DNA of 64,000 nt, from NCBI GenBank assembly GCA_006503475.1, contig RSEH01000074.1, forward strand, positions 1-64,000. The letters run 5' to 3'. The stretch is from Stentor roeselii (lineage: Eukaryota > Ciliophora > Heterotrichea > Heterotrichida > Stentoridae). A program made the position numbers and the translations under genes. Positions 19,885 to 48,163 of this stretch are shown here, piece after piece; position 1 is the first letter of the stretch; each line of letters opens with the position of its first letter. Below the pieces are notes generated by a model. That model made no database searches. It saw only the letters and a list, made by a program, of their open reading frames with translations, and was not told the origin of the DNA.

Positions 19885-21546
19885 CTATTTACTTAACTTC
19901 AATTTTTCAAACATGTTAAGTATCCTTTTAGTTCCCTCAGTATAATTAACAGGATAAACACTCCCAATAGTAAATTCATTCCTAGTCCCTTGGTTAGTTC
20001 TCTGCAATTCAGCGATCCGAATACTAAAAACAAACTGTAAAAACGAAGAACTTCTAACAATACTCAACTTTTCCTCATCATTTTTCTTCTCAAATTCAGC
20101 AGCTTTCATTTTCAACAAAAATTCAGCAGGTTCATTAAAAGCAGTGGCAAAAATCGACCCAGTAGAATCTCCTAACATGACACCCCTCAACAAATACTTA
20201 TAAATGCATTCACGACTGAATCCTCCACAAGATATACAATTAAAAACACCTTCTTCATTAGCATCTACCTTTTTATTGCATTTGATACAACTTGGATAAG
20301 TTGCTTTTTCGACTTGTTTCGGGAACTGAACTCTGCAAATGACGAAATATTTCTCATTTCCAGGAGGTTTATTCTTGATTTGTTCAATGGTGTGATAAGG
20401 TTCGTCATCTCTGTTATTTTCTTTTCTTTGAGTGAGGTCAAGTATTTGCACTGAGTCTTTATCCAAATTTTTAAACCATTTCATAATTCTACCTGCATTT
20501 TCATTCAAAGGGTTGAACTCAAGTTCAGTCATTGCCCTGACACTAGAGAGGTAAAAGGCTTCATTATAAATTGTGATATTTACACTTTTCGCGTAAAGAA
20601 TCGAATCATTCACTCTAAGCTCTGATATTCGTGAGTCACTCGCGTTTTCATTCCACAAGGACAAGTCCACCCTCGCTCCGGAGTCATCAAGGATCTTGAT
20701 CACTCTTTGATGTAAAATTTCACCCTTCTGCTTCGAAACCTTTTCAGTGACTAGTCCGACGTCGACCACCACGCCCATCACGTCGACCATGGTCCTTGAA
20801 GACATTTCTTTTAACTTGTTCAAAGGCGTGACTTCTCTCGTGATTTTCCTCTGTTCAAAAGCTTGGTCCTCGTCTAAAGTAATATCTGCTGAGTTGCTAA
20901 AGTTTAACTTGTAGTTCGAATCTGAAGTCCTGTATTTCTTATCTGCTAAGCTGATATTCCCTCCTGAAAACAGGTAAACTTTTCCTATTTCAATCAAGGT
21001 GTAGAACTTTTCTGCTGATTCACCGAAAAAAGATCCTGAAATCTGTGCACCTGCAACATCAGTTATCAGAATCGTCATGTATTTATCGGTTTTTGATGTT
21101 TTTGGATTCGTGTATTCAGCAAGTTCACTTTTTTTTATTACCTTCGCTCTTAAGGTCCAGTCATAGAGAAAAGTGCTCAAGGCGCTGATGGGTGTGTAAG
21201 ATTCATGAAGATGTTGCATTATTTTATTCATTGGTTTCGGAGTGCCTAACTTTGGAACACCCTGCATAGCGGTAAGTGAGTTAATATTTAAAACGTATCG
21301 CTTTTCTAAATTCATTATCGTGAAATCGTTCAGTCTGACCAGCTGTAGCTCTTTTAACTCACCTGACTTGATCTTATCAGCGAAAGACGAGTCAAGGTTA
21401 GCCTCGATGTGGTGCTCGCCATCAGAAAGCAGTGCAAAAATCGTGTCATTTCCCATTAACTTCATTTCAAGCACCTGGAGAATAACGTCTGTCGACCTGT
21501 CATTCTGATTTTTTAACAGAGTCGTCAAGATGCCTGTGCTTATCAT
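19885..21546 (-). CDS. RPA1: replication protein A large subunit (RPA1/RFA1)
   Basis: 553 aa. The N-terminal OB domain (about 1-105) is followed by tandem OB folds binding single-stranded DNA (about 120-350, with WTLRAKVIKKSELAEYTNP and a GKVYLFSGGNISLADKKY segment). The C-terminal OB fold carries the inserted zinc ribbon C-x2-C-x13-C-x2-C (SCIKCNKKVD ... FNCISCGG). Order and length agree with RPA70, somewhat short. The protein coats single-stranded DNA in replication, repair and recombination in the nucleus. A frame this long without an intron and a start in a TTATAAATG context make the limits firm. Confidence 0.95.
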   Translation of the reverse strand: MISTGILTTLLKNQNDRSTDVILQVLEMKLMGNDTIFALLSDGEHHIEANLDSSFADKIKSGELKELQLVRLNDFTIMNLEKRYVLNINSLTAMQGVPKLGTPKPMNKIMQHLHESYTPISALSTFLYDWTLRAKVIKKSELAEYTNPKTSKTDKYMTILITDVAGAQISGSFFGESAEKFYTLIEIGKVYLFSGGNISLADKKYRTSDSNYKLNFSNSADITLDEDQAFEQRKITREVTPLNKLKEMSSRTMVDVMGVVVDVGLVTEKVSKQKGEILHQRVIKILDDSGARVDLSLWNENASDSRISELRVNDSILYAKSVNITIYNEAFYLSSVRAMTELEFNPLNENAGRIMKWFKNLDKDSVQILDLTQRKENNRDDEPYHTIEQIKNKPPGNEKYFVICRVQFPKQVEKATYPSCIKCNKKVDANEEGVFNCISCGGFSRECIYKYLLRGVMLGDSTGSIFATAFNEPAEFLLKMKAAEFEKKNDEEKLSIVRSSSFLQFVFSIRIAELQRTNQGTRNEFTIGSVYPVNYTEGTKRILNMFEKLKLSK

Positions 21547-30729: not shown

Positions 30730-33039
30730 ATGGTCGAACGACAGTTTGGAGATCCGATAAGAATAACAACAAATTTCTTCAGCTTACGAAAAACCCCGAT
30801 AGACGACATAATAGTTTACTCCCTGAGCTTCGTTCCAGAGGTAGAACCAGATAACCGAAGTTTGATCGGTCGAATATTCGGAACAAAAAAGCCTGAAATT
30901 GAAGAAGCCCTAGGCCATATAATAAGGTCAGGAAGTGTCGCATATTCAAAAATATTCGTTGCTGAGCCGTTGTCATTCCCTGTAACCTTAGCAGAAGGGG
31001 AAGAGTACGTCTTAATCTTGACAGCTGCAAGAAGAATTTTCAAAGAACATGTTGATTTATACAGAATGTACTCGAATTCAGCTTTGAAAAAGATGCTTCA
31101 AGCGATAGGACTCAAACAAGTAACTAAACTTCCCAAGTACTACGACCCTGCTGCCATTCAGAGGGTGGACCAGCATAGATTAGAAGTTTGGAGAGGATAC
31201 ACTGCAAGTTTTGCACATCATATGAAGGAAATGCTTTTAAATATCGACTTTTCCAGCAAGATAATCAGACATCAAACTGCTTTTGACTTGATGATGAGCA
31301 TCAGGGAACAATGCTCTTCAGCTCATCTTGGAGAAGCCCTGAATATGGAAATGAAAGGTTTGATAGTCATGGCAAAATACGGTAATTTTAAATGTTATAG
31401 AATAGAAAGTGTTGTGCTGAATGAAAACCCAAGCAACTCATTCGATTCTAGAGAAGGTCCAATGACCTATATTGACTACTACCAAAAAAAATACGGGTTA
31501 AGAATCACTTCATCTCGACAGCCTTTGATAATCTCTTTCAGTGAAAGAGGAGATAAAGAAATTCGCCTGGTTCCAGAACTTTGCTTTATGACAGGTTTAA
31601 CAGAAGAAATGAGAAAAGATTTTAGGGCGATGAACGATATCGCCCGATTCACACGTCTTGCTCCGATGGAAAGACTTTCAGTTTCAACGAGTTTATCAGA
31701 TAAACTAGCTCGACACCCTAAATGTAAAGAAATATGTGATGAGTACTCCATTCAAGTGAACCCTGAACCTATTGTTGTTGATGGAGTCGTTTTGCCCATG
31801 GAAATCATCAGGGCTGGAAGGGCTGAATCTGATAGGGTCAATCTTGGAAGAGATGGAGGGTTTTTTTTGAGGGATAATATGTATAAAAAAGTGGAAATTA
31901 AAAGTTGGGTCGTACTTTCTACTGAAAGAGATACGGATGATGCGAATAAGTTGATCAAGACACTTATAGCGAAGTCAAAGAATATTAATGAGTTCTATAT
32001 GAGTCAACCTCAGCTTAGGTATTATAGACCGGATCAGGTCAAAGCGGCTATTCATGAACTTTCATCTACGCGAAATGAACCGCCTCAATTTGCCTTGGTT
32101 ATCATTTCTTTGAACTTTAAACAAATTTATAATGATATTAAAGAAGTCTCGACGCTTCACTCAGGTATTCCAACCCAATGCGTAAGAATCCAAAGTTTAA
32201 GAAACGACAAAAAATTTGACTCAGTAGTAACAAAGCTATTCATCCAAATCGCAACAAAGAACGGTTCAGTTCCATGGGTTGTAGCAAACCAACTAGGTCA
32301 GCCAGTTCCCGGTTTAAGTTTCAAAACAATGGTAATCGGAATCGACGTTTTCCACGACACAGTAAACCGTGCAAAGAGTGTCTTAGGCTTCGTGGGTTCA
32401 ATAACCCCTGACTTCGGCGAGTACCACAATTCAGTTCGTATCCACGACCGAAGTGGTCAAGAAGTAGCAGGTCTTGTTGGCGACTGCTTCCGTGACTGCA
32501 TTCTAGCCTTTTACGCTAAAACCCGAGGAAGGTTCTACCCAGACCAAGTCGTCGTTTTCAGAGACGGCGTCGCCGACAGTCAAATCGAGGCAGTTAAGAC
32601 CTTCGAGGTAGAGGCGATGAAGAAGATCATTCAAGGACTGCAAGGGTGCCAGACACAGCTGATTTACGTGATAGTCAACAAAAAAACCAATGCGAAACTT
32701 TTTCACTTTTCAGGAAGAAGCTACACGAATCCACCCCCGGGGACTGTTGTTGACTCGGTCGTGGTCCCTGAAGATCAGAGCTTTTACCTGATTGCTCATT
32801 CGGCGAATCAAGGAATGGCATCTCCGACTTTATACAGAATAATAAACAACGACTCTGAAACGGAAATAATGGCAATAGCGCGACTTGCCTATCGTCTTTG
32901 TTTCATGTATTACAACTGGACCGGCGGGGTAAAAATCCCGGCTCCTACGATGATGGCTCACAAGCTGGCTTTTATAGTCGGGCAAAGTGTTCATGGGCAA
33001 CACTTGGAACCACTGAGGCTGCTGCCTTGGTTTTTTTAG
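30730..33039 (+). CDS. PIWI-clade Argonaute
   Basis: 769 aa, one exon. PAZ region about 190-310, MID about 440-530, PIWI domain about 530-769. The slicer residues look intact: Asp in VIGIDVFHD (about 537), Asp in VVFRDGVAD (about 611) and His in MMAHKLAF (about 743). PIWI proteins load 24-35-nt small RNAs. In other ciliates they guide DNA elimination or silencing in the developing macronucleus, and that role here is inference. The 5' flank is C-rich. The stop is 40 bp from that of the convergent GBP gene. Confidence 0.95.
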   Translation: MVERQFGDPIRITTNFFSLRKTPIDDIIVYSLSFVPEVEPDNRSLIGRIFGTKKPEIEEALGHIIRSGSVAYSKIFVAEPLSFPVTLAEGEEYVLILTAARRIFKEHVDLYRMYSNSALKKMLQAIGLKQVTKLPKYYDPAAIQRVDQHRLEVWRGYTASFAHHMKEMLLNIDFSSKIIRHQTAFDLMMSIREQCSSAHLGEALNMEMKGLIVMAKYGNFKCYRIESVVLNENPSNSFDSREGPMTYIDYYQKKYGLRITSSRQPLIISFSERGDKEIRLVPELCFMTGLTEEMRKDFRAMNDIARFTRLAPMERLSVSTSLSDKLARHPKCKEICDEYSIQVNPEPIVVDGVVLPMEIIRAGRAESDRVNLGRDGGFFLRDNMYKKVEIKSWVVLSTERDTDDANKLIKTLIAKSKNINEFYMSQPQLRYYRPDQVKAAIHELSSTRNEPPQFALVIISLNFKQIYNDIKEVSTLHSGIPTQCVRIQSLRNDKKFDSVVTKLFIQIATKNGSVPWVVANQLGQPVPGLSFKTMVIGIDVFHDTVNRAKSVLGFVGSITPDFGEYHNSVRIHDRSGQEVAGLVGDCFRDCILAFYAKTRGRFYPDQVVVFRDGVADSQIEAVKTFEVEAMKKIIQGLQGCQTQLIYVIVNKKTNAKLFHFSGRSYTNPPPGTVVDSVVVPEDQSFYLIAHSANQGMASPTLYRIINNDSETEIMAIARLAYRLCFMYYNWTGGVKIPAPTMMAHKLAFIVGQSVHGQHLEPLRLLPWFF

Positions 33040-39892: not shown

Positions 39893-40576
39893 TCAATTTT
39901 TTTCAACGAAATTGAAGATTTTTTCGTAGTCTTTTTCGACGGTTTCGTAAGGAACTTCATATAAATAAAGGCCTAAAAGTACCCATAAGACTGTTTCGAC
40001 ATCGCCAACTCCATAATCTCTAACGAAGTACTCTGCATATTCAGTATATTTTTTTTCTCTTGCTTCTTTTGTGTTGTCAGTTTCATAGAAAAAGTAAAAG
40101 TCTCCTCCTGGGTTCTCAGAGTTGTCTGAATAGAATCTGACACTTGCGTACTCTCCACTGGTGTAATGGGCAAGATACACCCAGGGACCATGAGGCCAGT
40201 TGACAATCATTTTAGAATGATCCACAGTGTAAATATTTAAATTCCTTTCAAAAGCCAAGCTGATACTTTCATAAATAATCTTTTTATCCTTCCCTTCAAA
40301 GAAATTAAGTCCAAGTCCTTTTTCAGATTCAGAAGAATCAGAGGTACTTTCAAAATACCTCCTAATCCGATTAAAAACCTCTAAAAATCGATCTTCTCTT
40401 CCAAATACCTGATCACTAATAGCTCTGCACAAAGAATTTCCATCATTTTCTACTTTTTTCGCCTTAAGACACTCATAACTCAACAATTCCTCTAAAAACT
40501 CATCATCATGCTTAATCCTATCCCATTTGCGAGCACTACTTCCAACTTTCCACTTCTTTTTCGAGCTTTTTCCCAT
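39893..40576 (-). CDS. OTU-fold protein lacking catalytic residues
   Basis: 227 aa. The OTU pattern is clear: NDGNSLCRAISDQVFG at residues 44-59 matches the D-G-N-C-L-F-R-A box, and YTSGEYASVRF matches the GEHYDSVR box. At the catalytic Cys position there is Ser48, and Cys occurs two residues later (Cys50). The catalytic His position is missing because the second box is one residue short. The protein is therefore probably not an active deubiquitinase of the usual kind and may bind ubiquitin or a partner. It begins 3 nt after the APC8 stop on the same strand, so co-regulation with a ubiquitin ligase gene is possible. Confidence 0.78.
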   Translation of the reverse strand: MGKSSKKKWKVGSSARKWDRIKHDDEFLEELLSYECLKAKKVENDGNSLCRAISDQVFGREDRFLEVFNRIRRYFESTSDSSESEKGLGLNFFEGKDKKIIYESISLAFERNLNIYTVDHSKMIVNWPHGPWVYLAHYTSGEYASVRFYSDNSENPGGDFYFFYETDNTKEAREKKYTEYAEYFVRDYGVGDVETVLWVLLGLYLYEVPYETVEKDYEKIFNFVEKN

Positions 40577-40579
40577 TTA

Positions 40580-42172
40580 CTAATTAAGTTCTGTTTGTCG
40601 GATATGATAAGTAGCTCGATCCAATTCAGCTCCTCCAAAATCATAAAGTCTCCTTGCATAAGTCGCTGCCTCTTCATTCAAACCCTTCGCCAAATAATAC
40701 TGTTTCAAAAACATAATCGCTTCAACAGTTTCTTCACCCGTATCATTTTCCAAGTCCTTCCTTGCAAGACTTTCCAAAAAGCACTTTGCAGCTTTTTCAG
40801 TAAGTCCAAGTCTTCCATAAAGCCGAGCAAGTCGATGAAGGACGACGCCTTCTCGGTCTTTGAGTCTTTCAGCTTTTTCATAACATTTTGCAGATTCGCT
40901 TGTTTTTCCCATTTTTTCATAGCAAGTGCCAAGAGCCACCCAAAGTCTTGAGTCCTGAGGTCTGGTGAGAATGGCTTTGTAGTAATAGTAAATTGCGTAA
41001 AGGTTCATATCGCTCACCTCGTAGGTCTCGGCCAGCCCGTACCAGGCGCGGTAGTCTTTTGAGTCGAGTTCGATCGCTGTTCTGTAGGATTCTATTGCTT
41101 TTGTCACGTTTTGCATTTCAAGGTACTCGTGCCCCATCAGGATCCAGGCGGGAAGATAGTTTTTGTCGAGCTCGGTTGCACGTTTGAAGTAGACCATTGC
41201 ACGGGTGTGGTCGTTTTTTAGGCTGTAGTAGTTGCCTAGGACGAAACAGGTCTCTGGACGGTATTTGTCATTTTGGAACATTCGATGGGCCAGGTAGCTT
41301 AGTTTTCCTGCTTCTTCTCTCACGTATAGGATGTTTGAGTAAACGTCCATCAATTCATAGCTATAAGGGTCAACTTCTTCAACCTGTTCAAACCAAATAA
41401 TAGCATTAGTATAATCATCCATCAAAAAAAACTCATTTCCTATCTGTGAATAAATAAAAGAACTACTAGGAAAGTACTTCTCCGCCACAAGTGCATAAAG
41501 GTCAATAGACTCTTCAGTCTTCTGCATTTTATGATAAAACTGTGCAATAAAAAAATTTTTAATCCAATGATTATTCAACTTGCTCAAACATTCAGTATCA
41601 CATAAATCAAACAATTCAAGCCAAGCAGACCAATTAATAGGAAACTCATTAAGACTACTCACAAGCAAACTCTTAGCAGCCTGGCTTTCCCCTCGATGTT
41701 TTTTCACAACTCCCAACAAATAAGCACAAAACGCATCAATAGGTTTAAGTTGTGAATCAATGCTAAAAAGTTGTCGATTTTCTACTTCTTTCCCTTCTTC
41801 AATACTTTCTTCTTCCCTTCTGAACTCGCCATACATAAACATCGAGTAATGATATAAAAAGTAAGCTTGAGGATATTCAGGTTTCGCATATTCAGTCAAA
41901 ACAGAAGCGGCTTTGATGTATTCCTTAAGGTCGAAAAGTGTCTTTGCAAGTTGTAAACTATCGAAAGACTTGTCGACGATATCATTGTAAGGAAGTCTCG
42001 AGTTTTCTTGAGCAGGGATGCTTAAAAGTAACTGAGCAGCCCATTTGGCGCTTTGGTAAAGTTTATATGAACTGAGCTTGGAAGATGCGAATCTGAGCTC
42101 GCCTCTTACTTCTTGCATGTCGGTTATCAAAATCGCGGGTTCTGTTATTTTGTTGAAAGGACAAGCTTCCAT
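40580..42172 (-). CDS. CDC23: APC8/CDC23 anaphase-promoting complex subunit
   Basis: 530 aa. An N-terminal CDC23 domain (RGELRFASSKLSSYKLYQSAKWAAQLL) precedes at least seven TPR units. The diagnostic stretch is SNILYVREEAGKLSYLAHRMF, then YRPETCFVLGNYYSLKNDH. APC8 is a TPR scaffold of the APC/C ubiquitin ligase that drives anaphase. The length is that of the family. The ATG is 6 nt after the stop of the preceding coiled-coil gene, and its own stop (TAG) is followed by TAA and the next ATG. Confidence 0.93.
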   Translation of the reverse strand: MEACPFNKITEPAILITDMQEVRGELRFASSKLSSYKLYQSAKWAAQLLLSIPAQENSRLPYNDIVDKSFDSLQLAKTLFDLKEYIKAASVLTEYAKPEYPQAYFLYHYSMFMYGEFRREEESIEEGKEVENRQLFSIDSQLKPIDAFCAYLLGVVKKHRGESQAAKSLLVSSLNEFPINWSAWLELFDLCDTECLSKLNNHWIKNFFIAQFYHKMQKTEESIDLYALVAEKYFPSSSFIYSQIGNEFFLMDDYTNAIIWFEQVEEVDPYSYELMDVYSNILYVREEAGKLSYLAHRMFQNDKYRPETCFVLGNYYSLKNDHTRAMVYFKRATELDKNYLPAWILMGHEYLEMQNVTKAIESYRTAIELDSKDYRAWYGLAETYEVSDMNLYAIYYYYKAILTRPQDSRLWVALGTCYEKMGKTSESAKCYEKAERLKDREGVVLHRLARLYGRLGLTEKAAKCFLESLARKDLENDTGEETVEAIMFLKQYYLAKGLNEEAATYARRLYDFGGAELDRATYHIRQTELN

Positions 42173-42178
42173 TTAATA

Positions 42179-43342
42179 TTAGAAGGTTTTAAATATACAC
42201 GGACATAACCAGGACTTCCATGTTTTTCTTTTCACTTCGATTTCTTGAGTTTTTTCTAGTGCTTCTAAATCGCTTATCAGGTAAGATGAACCTTTTTGAC
42301 TGCTGTTTAAACCTTCGCCTTGGGTGGGAATTGCAAGGGTGGTCATTATTTGGCTTGGGTCGCAGATTAGCCCGATTATTGTGTCTTCGTCTTGTGATGG
42401 ACTTTTAGGAGCTTCGAAATCACGAGCTGAGACACTTAGTCCTTCGGTGATTAAGTATTTTAAGTGATTTTTTTGAGAGTTTCTAGAGCTTTTTAGTTGG
42501 TTGGGTGAATCGTTTTCGAGTGACTCTGCTTTTGCTGTTCGGCTTGACTTTTCATTGAAAGGTGACCATTCAAGTTTGAAAGGACTAGGAAGAATTTTCT
42601 CATCAAGATGAATGGAACTAGTGAAGTTGTCTTTTATTTCACTATTTTTTAGTTTTTTATCAACTGGTGATTTTCTTGGACTTTCTTGAACCTTTTCAAT
42701 TTTTTCACTTTTTTCAGTCTTTTCAAGTCTTTCATCAGACTGAGTAACTCTTGGCTCTTCACTGGTTTCATCAGAAAATTCCATGTTAGTATCAAAACTC
42801 ATTTCAATCTTCTCCTCAACAGCAGTCAGGGTGTTACCTTCACTAAAACTCGAGTAGTTCTTCAGTTTTTCCTTGATTGAGTCGACAGTTTTCATGAGTG
42901 TCTGGTTAAGAGTAGACTCGCTCCAGTTGCAGGTGGACTCAAGCTGTTGGTAGCTGTTGTTTTTGTAAAGATTTTCCTTCTCATGCTCGTCTGACAGGCT
43001 GAAAAAGCTCATGAGTCTTAGGATCTCTTCAAATGTTTTCTCTTTAGCTAGACGCTTTTTTAGCTGATTGACTTGGAAGATCTCGATTGAGTTTTTTAGG
43101 TTCAGTGATTCTGACTTCCATGACAAACGAATTTCTGAGAGGTAGCATGAAGCTTCTTCGAATCGCTTTTTTAACTGGAGAGAACGAAGAGCGTTCTTGG
43201 ATTTTAATAGGTCGAAAGATTTTCGTAGTTCTAGGGAGTGTTGCTTGCTTTGCTCGATCTCGGATTGAAGGGTTTCTTTTGCTTTTTGTAGCTGATTGGG
43301 ATTTACTTTGGATTTCAGTGACTTTATTTCTTGAGACTCCAT
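42179..43342 (-). CDS. coiled-coil protein, unknown
   Basis: 387 aa starting MESQEIKSLKSKV; the open frame upstream has only a TTG. The first about 120 residues are coiled coil, the middle is Ser/Glu/Lys-rich and disordered, and the end KSWLCPCIFKTF is Cys- and aromatic-rich, possibly a palmitoylated tail. No family is recognised. It heads a run of four minus-strand genes with gaps of 6, 3 and 90 nt (this gene, CDC23, OTU-like, channel). Confidence 0.6.
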   Translation of the reverse strand: MESQEIKSLKSKVNPNQLQKAKETLQSEIEQSKQHSLELRKSFDLLKSKNALRSLQLKKRFEEASCYLSEIRLSWKSESLNLKNSIEIFQVNQLKKRLAKEKTFEEILRLMSFFSLSDEHEKENLYKNNSYQQLESTCNWSESTLNQTLMKTVDSIKEKLKNYSSFSEGNTLTAVEEKIEMSFDTNMEFSDETSEEPRVTQSDERLEKTEKSEKIEKVQESPRKSPVDKKLKNSEIKDNFTSSIHLDEKILPSPFKLEWSPFNEKSSRTAKAESLENDSPNQLKSSRNSQKNHLKYLITEGLSVSARDFEAPKSPSQDEDTIIGLICDPSQIMTTLAIPTQGEGLNSSQKGSSYLISDLEALEKTQEIEVKRKTWKSWLCPCIFKTF

Positions 43343-45394: not shown

Positions 45395-45685
45395 CTAATC
45401 CAAGTTCATCTGCCTAAGTTTCTGGGCAATATTCTTAAACTCCATATCTTCCAGTGCCTGCAAAATATGTTCAGGAGCGACCATAGCTCTTTTTTTCTTT
45501 CCCTGATTTTCCTTAGCGATTTCACTAGCAATAGTAGAAATATACATAACAAAAATACTAGCAGCCTGATTCATGATCCTTTTCACATCTTTGCTGACAA
45601 TAATTCCGTTGGGCAGTGCTTTTTTGGTGACAGCCGAGGTGTTAGACATAGGAAGCATCTTATCCTTGAAACTTTCTTCTTGCAT
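45395..45685 (-). CDS. POLE3: POLE3/DPB4-type histone-fold protein
   Basis: 96 aa, a histone fold of the NF-YB group. LPMSNTSAVTKKALPNG aligns without gaps with the LPNAVITRIIKEALPDG of POLE3/CHRAC17, followed by ASIFVMYISTIASEIA and EHILQALEDMEF. POLE3 pairs with POLE4 in DNA polymerase epsilon and in the CHRAC remodeller. The acidic tail of the human protein is absent. The ATG at 45685 leaves one base between it and the REV7 start. A second Met (45658) would still keep the conserved Leu-Pro. Confidence 0.85.
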   Translation of the reverse strand: MQEESFKDKMLPMSNTSAVTKKALPNGIIVSKDVKRIMNQAASIFVMYISTIASEIAKENQGKKKRAMVAPEHILQALEDMEFKNIAQKLRQMNLD

Positions 45686-45686
45686 A
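45686..45686. promoter_or_regulatory. 1-bp divergent spacer, POLE3 / REV7
   Basis: CAT-A-ATG: the two start codons point away from each other with a single A between them. There is no room for a separate promoter or 5'UTR. Confidence 0.6.
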
Positions 45687-46289
45687 ATGGAGTTTATATA
45701 CTCAGTGCAAGGTAAATTCTAACCAGAAGTAAAAATAACAAGTCTTGTCTTCCTAGAAGCGATGATCCACAGCTGGCTATACCTAAAAGGTCTCTACCCA
45801 GCAGAAGCCTTCGTCTCCAGGAACCTCTTCGGCGTGAATATCAAGTCCGCAGGCGAAAACAGTTTAAAAACTTACATTCACGATTTCATCACATCAATAG
45901 AAGACCTGCACTACAAAGGAATCCTTCATAGTATTTCTTTACTTCTGGTAAAAGACTCAAAAATCCTTGAAAATTTCGTCTTAAGGATCACGTGGATCAT
46001 GAATGTTTACACCTCGGCTGATAATGACAAAGTTCTCAGTCAAGTTCATTTGGAAAACTTTTTTGGAAAGGTTTTGAATGATTTTTATGCGGAATCTGTT
46101 CAAGATAATAAGGATAAAACTTTTCAGATTGTTATTGAAACTGTTAAGGAAGAGGCTTCTGAAGCTGAAGAAGTCCTCAGTAGGGAAAATTGGGTGCTTG
46201 TCAGTCAGGACTGTGAAAAATGTGAAGAATCGAGGAGTGTGACGGGAATTTTTAATTTAGAATGGGGATATGTGAAGATTTTATCATGA
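45687..46289 (+). CDS. MAD2L2: REV7/MAD2L2-like HORMA protein
   Basis: About 195 aa from exons 45687-45711 and 45727-46289. HORMA features are SLVFLEAMIHSWLYLKGLYP near the start, YIHDFITSIEDL, ILENFVLRI, then VLSQVHLENFFGKVL and KTFQIVIET. These align better with REV7 (LLSHVEQLLRAFILKI, CTFTVLVHT and a W-I/V-L near the C-terminus) than with MAD2. REV7 is a subunit of translesion polymerase zeta and of shieldin-type complexes. Without the first exon the HORMA fold would lack its first helix, which supports the 15-nt intron and the start at 45687. The stop is 7 bp from that of the convergent gene. Confidence 0.82.
45712..45726 (+). other. 15-nt intron in REV7 gene
   Basis: GTAAATTCTAACCAG, phase 1, A at position 10, ending CAG. 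Retention gives an in-frame TAA. Splicing builds the first HORMA helix. Confidence 0.85.
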
Positions 46290-46296
46290 TATTAAA

Positions 46297-47415
46297 TTAA
46301 ATCATCAACATCGCTTCTGGCATGTTTTGACCTCTGGCAAGTTGGTAAACTGCTTTGATGATTTTTTCTTGTTTCTTGTAAATGTTCTGCTCTAAAGATG
46401 TCAGCGTGTTGAACAGTTCTCGTCGCTGGGTCGTGCAAAGTTCTTCTAAAAACTCGATTCTTTTACCGAATCCGTTAAAATTATCAATCGCTTTTATCTC
46501 ATTACAAACAACAGAGTTAAAATTTTCTTGCACCCTGTTGAATTCTTCCCATTTTTTCTCAGAAGCTAGGCTAAGATCAATGATTTCTTTTTTAAACTGA
46601 TTCAAATTTTCACTAAATTTAAACTCAGAGGTTAAAACAAAGTCTTTTAAATCCAACATTTCTCTTCGACTTCCAATATTTTCAAGTTCTTTCTCAAATT
46701 TCTTCAAGTTACAATCAAATTCTTTCAATTCACGAAAAACTTTCTCTTCAACAGTTTTATTTTTTTCTTTTTCTTTTTCAATCACATAGTTCAGTTGTTT
46801 CGGCATGATTTCAATTTCTCTGATTTTCAAGGAAAAATCTTTGAAATTTTGAGAAATTTTCAAGACTTGTTCACAGTTTTCCTTGAAAGACTTGTCAAGG
46901 TTTAAATTGACTTCTTTTTGAGAGTCCGCCAGAAGTTGAAAAGATTGACTCAAGGACCGAAAGTCTCTTTGTAAGTCTTCTTGAGATGTTTTTAATGACT
47001 GGATGTGTTGAAAAGCTTGTTTTATGCTAAGTGTCAGTGAAGAGCTGATTTTATTCGAATTTTCTGAAGAAATTTGAATATTTTGACTAAAAGAATCGAT
47101 TCTTTCAAAGACCTGGTCTTTCAATTCGTCGATTTCCGCTCGGTAGTCCTTTCGAACGCCTTCTACCTCGTCGATCATCGCGTCTGCCAAGTCACTCAGT
47201 GCTTTTTTAAGTGTAAAGACCTGAGAATGAAGAGTTGCGAGCTGCTGTTTTTCAAGTCTTTCTAAGTTTTGCGCGGTTGCTGAGTTTTCAATTTTTATCT
47301 CCTCTTTGAGCCCGGAAAGTGCTGAGGAAAGGTTTTGAAGTCGCTCTCCAACGTTTTGAGATTCTCTTGATTTGGCTTTCGTGCTTTTTGTGGGTTGAAG
47401 GTATTGCTTCCACAT
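46297..47415 (-). CDS. long coiled-coil protein, unknown
   Basis: 372 aa, nearly all heptad-rich coiled coil with Glu, Lys, Gln and Leu periodicity (for example LKQAFQHIQSLKTSQEDLQR-like stretches). There is no globular domain and no membrane segment. Its ATG follows TATTATT and lies 7 nt after the stop of the upstream gene. Such proteins are common in ciliate cortex and basal bodies, but the sequence gives no direct link. Confidence 0.6.
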   Translation of the reverse strand: MWKQYLQPTKSTKAKSRESQNVGERLQNLSSALSGLKEEIKIENSATAQNLERLEKQQLATLHSQVFTLKKALSDLADAMIDEVEGVRKDYRAEIDELKDQVFERIDSFSQNIQISSENSNKISSSLTLSIKQAFQHIQSLKTSQEDLQRDFRSLSQSFQLLADSQKEVNLNLDKSFKENCEQVLKISQNFKDFSLKIREIEIMPKQLNYVIEKEKEKNKTVEEKVFRELKEFDCNLKKFEKELENIGSRREMLDLKDFVLTSEFKFSENLNQFKKEIIDLSLASEKKWEEFNRVQENFNSVVCNEIKAIDNFNGFGKRIEFLEELCTTQRRELFNTLTSLEQNIYKKQEKIIKAVYQLARGQNMPEAMLMI

Positions 47416-47422
47416 AATAATA

Positions 47423-48163
47423 TTAGCTAACTAATGGGTCTGATTTACCTTGGGTCGAGTTTTCTAGGTTTTCGGATAGGTTGATGTTTTGGAGCTCGAA
47501 GACTGCGGAGATGTCGGGGATTACTTCAGGGTTTGACTCGTCGAAGTAGTCTTCATTGTACCCCAGAGTCTCAAATATCTCATTTTGAAGGTAATACTTC
47601 AAACACTGCCACTTCTCAAAACATTCTAAAACATGAGTCTCCGATGTGCAACAATTGAATCCAAATCGCTTAATCAAATTTTTCGGCTTCATTTTCGAAA
47701 AAACCACCTCAAAGAAAAGTCTAAAGCTCTGTCGAACAGCAGGGGTATCAAAGTATTCTTGACAAAATTCATTGTTGAAGCTGCTTTTGTAGTCTTTTTC
47801 TTCTGTTCTTTTCTTGTTTTTTCCATCAGTAAGAGGGCCGGCTTCAGTACTTGATATCATTTCAAGAATAGTTTCGTTTTCATTGAGATGATCATGAAAT
47901 TTGCGATAATGGAAGGATTGTAAATTGTTTCCTAGTTTGAATTTTGCGATTCCTTTCTTAGGAATTGTGTTTTCTATTAAGTTTCGAATAAGTTTCTTAT
48001 GGCCTCGAATCACTTTGCACCGAACGTATTCTTTTTTCGGACAAGGGCTGTTTGGCTTTTTGTTAGTCTGAAACATCTTCATTATCAGGGTTTCTCTTTT
48101 GCGTTTTCTTTGATCTTGCTTGAAAATTAGATGCTTTTTGTTTAACCTCTTCACGCCATTCAT
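47423..48163 (-). CDS. unknown basic protein
   Basis: 246 aa. The N-terminal about 90 residues are strongly basic (KRLNKKHLIFKQDQRKRKRE), with possible nuclear signals. The C-terminal half has Cys and aromatic residues (FGFNCCTSETHVLECFEKWQ) and an acidic end. I do not recognise a family. Its frame ends 7 nt before the coiled-coil gene, which it may share a transcript with. Confidence 0.55.
   Translation of the reverse strand: MNGVKRLNKKHLIFKQDQRKRKRETLIMKMFQTNKKPNSPCPKKEYVRCKVIRGHKKLIRNLIENTIPKKGIAKFKLGNNLQSFHYRKFHDHLNENETILEMISSTEAGPLTDGKNKKRTEEKDYKSSFNNEFCQEYFDTPAVRQSFRLFFEVVFSKMKPKNLIKRFGFNCCTSETHVLECFEKWQCLKYYLQNEIFETLGYNEDYFDESNPEVIPDISAVFELQNINLSENLENSTQGKSDPLVS

Follow-up and report, generated by a model that had tools for sequence, protein, structure and literature searches.

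The heterotrich Stentor coeruleus has a compact macronuclear genome. In other ciliates, reported leaders are short, with a median of 19 nt in Paramecium (PMC5485702) and about 18 bp in Halteria, where TATA-like motifs are described at an average of 17 bp before the transcription start (PMC7858049). The published description of the Blepharisma genome is of gene-dense sequence with short intergenic regions (PMC9942806). Among parasites, leaders are described as very short in Encephalitozoon (PMC2803860) and Giardia (PMC3792122), and transcription there as overlapping or bidirectional.

The locus analysed here lies in sequence that is likewise gene-dense, with short intergenic regions and introns of 15-16 nt, as in Blepharisma stoltei (PMC9942806) and S. 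coeruleus, but unlike Blepharisma, in which UGA is reported to encode tryptophan, the frames in the sampled sequence are open under the standard code. As in Paramecium and Halteria (PMC5485702, PMC7858049), short leaders would be expected, the TATA-like motifs of Halteria also lying close to the start; unlike those systems, whose leaders come from transcript data, the junction examined here is described from sequence, and an 18-19-nt leader could fit a 1-bp junction only by overlapping. The crowding recalls that described for microsporidia (PMC2803860) and Giardia (PMC3792122), with their 5'UTRs of one to few nucleotides, yet those organisms are parasites with core signals of their own (a CCC-like motif; an initiation consensus), whereas the present genome is ciliate-like.

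Results and discussion

Gene structure and identity

Direct reading of the window (the whole stretch of DNA analysed, 64,000 nt) bore out the arrangement described in the initial annotation, in which the start codons of a probable POLE3 gene on the minus strand and of REV7 on the plus strand are separated by one base (CATAATG, 45683..45689, with CAT at 45683-45685, A at 45686 and ATG at 45687-45689). The probable POLE3 gene (hereafter POLE3) is a single exon for a histone-fold protein of 96 aa (45395..45685, minus strand, stop included), detected by Pfam, by a profile of six relatives and by our gene finder. REV7 (45687-46289, plus strand) has a first exon coding for MEFIYSVQ and the first base of the next codon (45687..45711) and a second exon that contains the HORMA domain (45727..46289, stop included; Pfam HORMA, 1.6e-6). 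Removal of the 15-nt intron between them, GTAAATTCTAACCAG (45712..45726, plus strand), gives a protein of 195 aa; the peptide of a relative, P0012, would fit a read-through 15-nt intron at this site, and the intron scored 0.93 in a matrix trained on 44 introns, itself among them (training range -2.2 to 3.9). Neither Rfam, at its gathering threshold, nor a tRNA scan gave a match in the window. Elsewhere in the window, the large subunit of Replication protein A is encoded at 19885-21546 (Pfam Rep_fac-A_C, 1.4e-22), about 24 kb from the POLE3/REV7 pair, and a Piwi/PAZ protein at 30730-33039.

Assignment of the HORMA protein as REV7-like, nearer to MAD2B than to MAD2, is supported by sequence comparison and agrees with the identity first given to it. 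Its best PDB match was MAD2B/REV7 (3.7e-8, against 1.9e-4 for the best MAD2), and a profile search ranked the two in the same order (MAD2B 2.1e-8, MAD2 1.3e-5). An exon-by-exon search of the 44.4-Mb assembly found REV7 as the sole match to PF02301 (HORMA). Matches to B-family polymerases were present at six contigs of the assembly, REV3 not being told apart among them.

The minus-strand protein carries an NF-YB-type histone fold (Pfam CBFD_NFYB_HMF, PF00808, 7.2e-8, 33 bits, cut-off 21.4) and is probably POLE3. The initial identification as POLE3 is made probable by the six-relative profile and by named non-ciliate matches, and loses ground in the single-sequence PDB search, which placed HapC first (39.7 bits), plant NF-YB next and Dpb4 at 31.3. 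With the profile of six relatives (A1), the best PDB chain was DNA polymerase epsilon subunit D / Dpb4 (49.2 bits), followed by HapC (46.6) and CHRAC-14 (43.7). A larger profile (A3), which itself holds an insect POLE3, gave CHRAC-14 70.5, Dpb4 67.1 and HapC 62.9, and its match to 6wjv, another chain bearing the name DNA polymerase epsilon subunit D, reached only 28.8 bits. All three matches with a non-ciliate organism name (P0030, P0034 and P0037) are POLE3, while several relatives bear NF-Y or histone labels. Introns of 15 nt, frames open under the standard code and relatives named Stentor coeruleus and Blepharisma stoltei would place the genome among the heterotrichs. L003 and L004, also from this assembly, appeared NF-YB-like by eye against the HapC alignment.

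Tight gaps in the sampled genome

The spacing of neighbouring genes was surveyed in 339 kb, namely contig C490 (171 kb, which includes the window), C122 (88 kb) and 80 kb of C519, with a two-strand gene finder based on codon usage, with 15-nt introns once trained, which called both POLE3 and REV7. At a score of 10 it predicted 192 genes with a coding fraction of 0.78, and gaps of 10 bp or less separated 5 of the 49 predicted divergent pairs, 15 of the 91 tandem ones and 9 of the 49 convergent ones; these gaps can never be negative because the caller forbids overlap and admits only 15-nt introns in its trained form. At a score of 30 the corresponding counts were 4/40, 14/78 and 5/40. Tandem genes at 39893-43342 and 46297-48163 show stop-to-start gaps of 3, 6 and 7 bp, so that promoters there too must reach into neighbouring genes.

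When the starts were left free, both were unchanged in 44 of the 49 divergent pairs. Three of the five tight divergent pairs retained their gap and two came to overlap (POLE3/REV7 and 131497/131504), while one further pair shrank from 17 to 2 bp, which brings the pairs no more than 10 bp apart, counting overlaps, to six of 49. A gap of exactly 1 bp was found in two of the 49 predicted divergent pairs, both of the form CAT-A-ATG. The second instance lies head-to-head on the same contig as POLE3/REV7 (C490:125305/125307, or L012:1305/1307), between a weak FYVE-like protein on the minus strand (below cut-off) and, on the plus strand, a protein with a hydrophobic start and without a Pfam match, whose start has a poor context (-3.65), yet no other Met in the first 60 residues. 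In the four tight divergent pairs other than POLE3/REV7, the partners show no evident relation, a judgement limited by the 5 of 8 proteins without a Pfam match; the remainder include an adenosine deaminase and a Ras/EF-hand-associated protein. The POLE3/REV7 junction is thus the extreme of a frequent state, and its spacing is not exceptional in the sampled part of the genome.

The reading that best fits these observations, to which we assign a probability of about 75%, is that POLE3 and REV7 are two ordinary protein-coding genes that compaction of the genome has squeezed together, leaving one base between their start codons. Under compaction of this kind, the core promoter of each gene would lie wholly or partly within the 5' coding sequence of the other, and, barring an overlooked 5' exon, the mRNAs would either carry leaders of about 0-1 nt or overlap in antisense at their 5' ends. 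The initial annotation had foreseen leaderless mRNAs or overlapping antisense 5' ends as a consequence of the junction, and the logic is sound: with one base between the starts and no 5' exon in view, either the leaders would be no longer than about 1 nt or the 5' ends would overlap. Were the leaders of the size found in Paramecium or Halteria, the 5' ends of both transcripts would fall inside the opposite gene.

We looked upstream of the predicted genes for a TATA element at a constant distance. TATAWA proved to be enriched near ATGs without a sharp position: 15 of 174 genes have it between -25 and -2, where windows farther upstream give a mean of 3.1; part of the A/T-rich signal near ATGs is the start context itself. 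On the POLE3 strand, TATATAAA (45693..45700, minus strand) lies between -15 and -8 relative to the POLE3 ATG, within REV7 codons 3-5, and is, on the strength of that enrichment, a candidate core element. The pair thereby offers a natural case of two Pol II genes, with starts backed by homology, whose intergenic space cannot hold a promoter, and the roughly one in ten predicted divergent pairs within 10 bp in the sample (5/49) form a group suited to the study of initiation from coding DNA.

Co-control and gene neighbourhood

Divergent genes with adjoining starts are one feature of a shared bidirectional promoter, and the 1-bp gap provides it here. The further proposal of the initial annotation, that one shared initiation site governs subunits of both a replicative and a translesion polymerase, found no support of its own, since gaps just as small separate other pairs, whether divergent, tandem or convergent. 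Co-regulation of POLE3 and REV7 is neither shown nor needed, and the pairing of two polymerase subunits is probably incidental.

A dedicated bidirectional initiation site, selected for in heterotrichs and controlling both genes, is therefore unlikely. In its favour, P0012 (REV7, 53%) and P0020 (POLE3, 52%) are each listed with a single lgn contig of 25,837 bp; the POLE3 and REV7 proteins of the window likewise both report 3,271 bp, and 25,837 is the one match beyond that. P0012 and P0020 may accordingly derive from one and the same contig, a hint of a neighbourhood kept in a second species, by which co-control stays conceivable but is not demonstrated. Against this, the longest contigs of the six other non-self REV7 clusters match those of no POLE3 cluster in length, a weak objection because clusters list their longest contig only, and a second POLE3-like gene of the assembly, 47% identical (L002:1465-1764, contig C345), has no REV7 beside it. 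The eight residues of REV7 exon 1 are all identical in P0012, against 95/181 in the remainder, and TATATAAA falls within this exon on the POLE3 strand, both of which would suit a dedicated site, but fully identical 8-residue windows are present elsewhere in REV7 as well. Scans of genome contigs and viral contigs with the POLE3 and REV7 alignments for neighbouring DNA in other species confirmed no relatives, and a single narrow search found no literature treating REV7, POLE3 and a ciliate together.

It is quite unlikely, too, that the junction is a kept, doubly used heterotrich element, with REV7 exon 1 coding for the N-terminus and also serving as POLE3 core promoter through TATATAAA; its mRNAs would be leaderless or start in the opposite coding region, and it would tie a Pol epsilon to a Pol zeta subunit.

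The REV7 start codon

The compaction reading depends on the two start codons, and that of REV7 is kept at 45687, with support from homology. P0012 begins MEFIYSVQGSFYSEIKTSTL, that is, with the MEFIYSVQ of exon 1, in agreement with the start first chosen. In our own reading of the P0012 peptide through its possible codons, it would comprise MEFIYSVQ, a read-through 15-nt intron and EIKTSTL, and hence the same exon 1 and the same intron site. Exon 1 was visible in one of seven non-self REV7 matches, P0012 alone. The context of the 45687 Met is weak (0.07, a score not reached by 15% of training starts and exceeded by 12.5% of non-start ATGs), and both used starts outscore the alternative POLE3 Mets in context.

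Were REV7 to begin instead at 45573, the two coding regions would overlap by 113 bp in antisense. The REV7 frame is indeed open for 39 codons upstream, with a Met at -38, and runs antisense through POLE3 at 45573-45684; this start was chosen when the gene finder was run strand by strand, and it was slightly preferred in free codon and context scoring without the no-overlap rule (2.97 against 1.19). Its context score (-4.28), however, is lower than that of most non-start ATGs, and P0012 as predicted begins at MEFIYSVQ. Antisense open runs of at least 39 codons also adjoin a start in 55 of 429 frames (143 genes in three frames each; 26/143 for the third register), 26 of the 55 having an upstream Met with a positive codon score. 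We regard this longer REV7 as very unlikely.

Upstream exons

If one of the genes had an untranslated or coding 5' exon farther off, the apparent spacer would not be its promoter. Such an exon would have contradicted the initial annotation, and none of acceptable score was found for either gene among 15-nt introns ending in open upstream codons, the class of introns with coding upstream codons that was scored: POLE3 has no 15-nt GT..AG candidate there, and the sole candidate upstream of REV7 scored -7.4, against an accepted minimum of -2.2. In the unscored size classes, GT..AG stretches of 13-25 nt (15 nt excluded) ending in open upstream codons number two for POLE3 and six for REV7, and GTA..AG stretches of 26-119 nt four and five, respectively. 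A distant 5' exon is given a very slim chance.

The POLE3 start codon

For POLE3, the outer Met at 45685 is favoured on comparative grounds, in keeping with the start first proposed, as relatives and L002, the second POLE3-like gene, carry residues N-terminal to where the inner Met lies. The alternative Met mentioned in the initial annotation is present at 45658, 27 nt inside, and a further one lies at 45649, 36 nt inside. In an alignment of 20 proteins (A3), all 18 other rows with a start Met (17 distinct proteins, P0014 and L002 being the same; P0026 lacks a start) have at least five residues ahead of the LP columns (IP in P0002), where POLE3 has ten from its outer Met and only one from the inner. 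Conservation thus pointed away from the inner Met. The N-termini of P0002 (MQEENIKEKM) and POLE3 (MQEESFKDKM) are alike. In a start-context matrix trained with both POLE3 and REV7 left out, Met1 of POLE3 scored 0.18, Met10 -3.72 and Met13 -2.46, and combined codon and context scores were 15.5, 9.1 and 9.5, respectively; the outer context is itself weak, with 16% of training starts lower and 11.5% of non-start ATGs higher. A true start at 45658, which would open a 28-bp spacer, is highly improbable: the ATG exists and has a free-start score of 9.1, but it is outscored by the outer Met, has a poor context and lies behind residues that the relatives carry.

L002, which this genome encodes besides POLE3, begins MENLEFDEKLLP, with an in-frame TAA directly before its ATG. 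The identity of its product with P0014, from a JGI contig, points to the same or a very near organism in public metagenomes.
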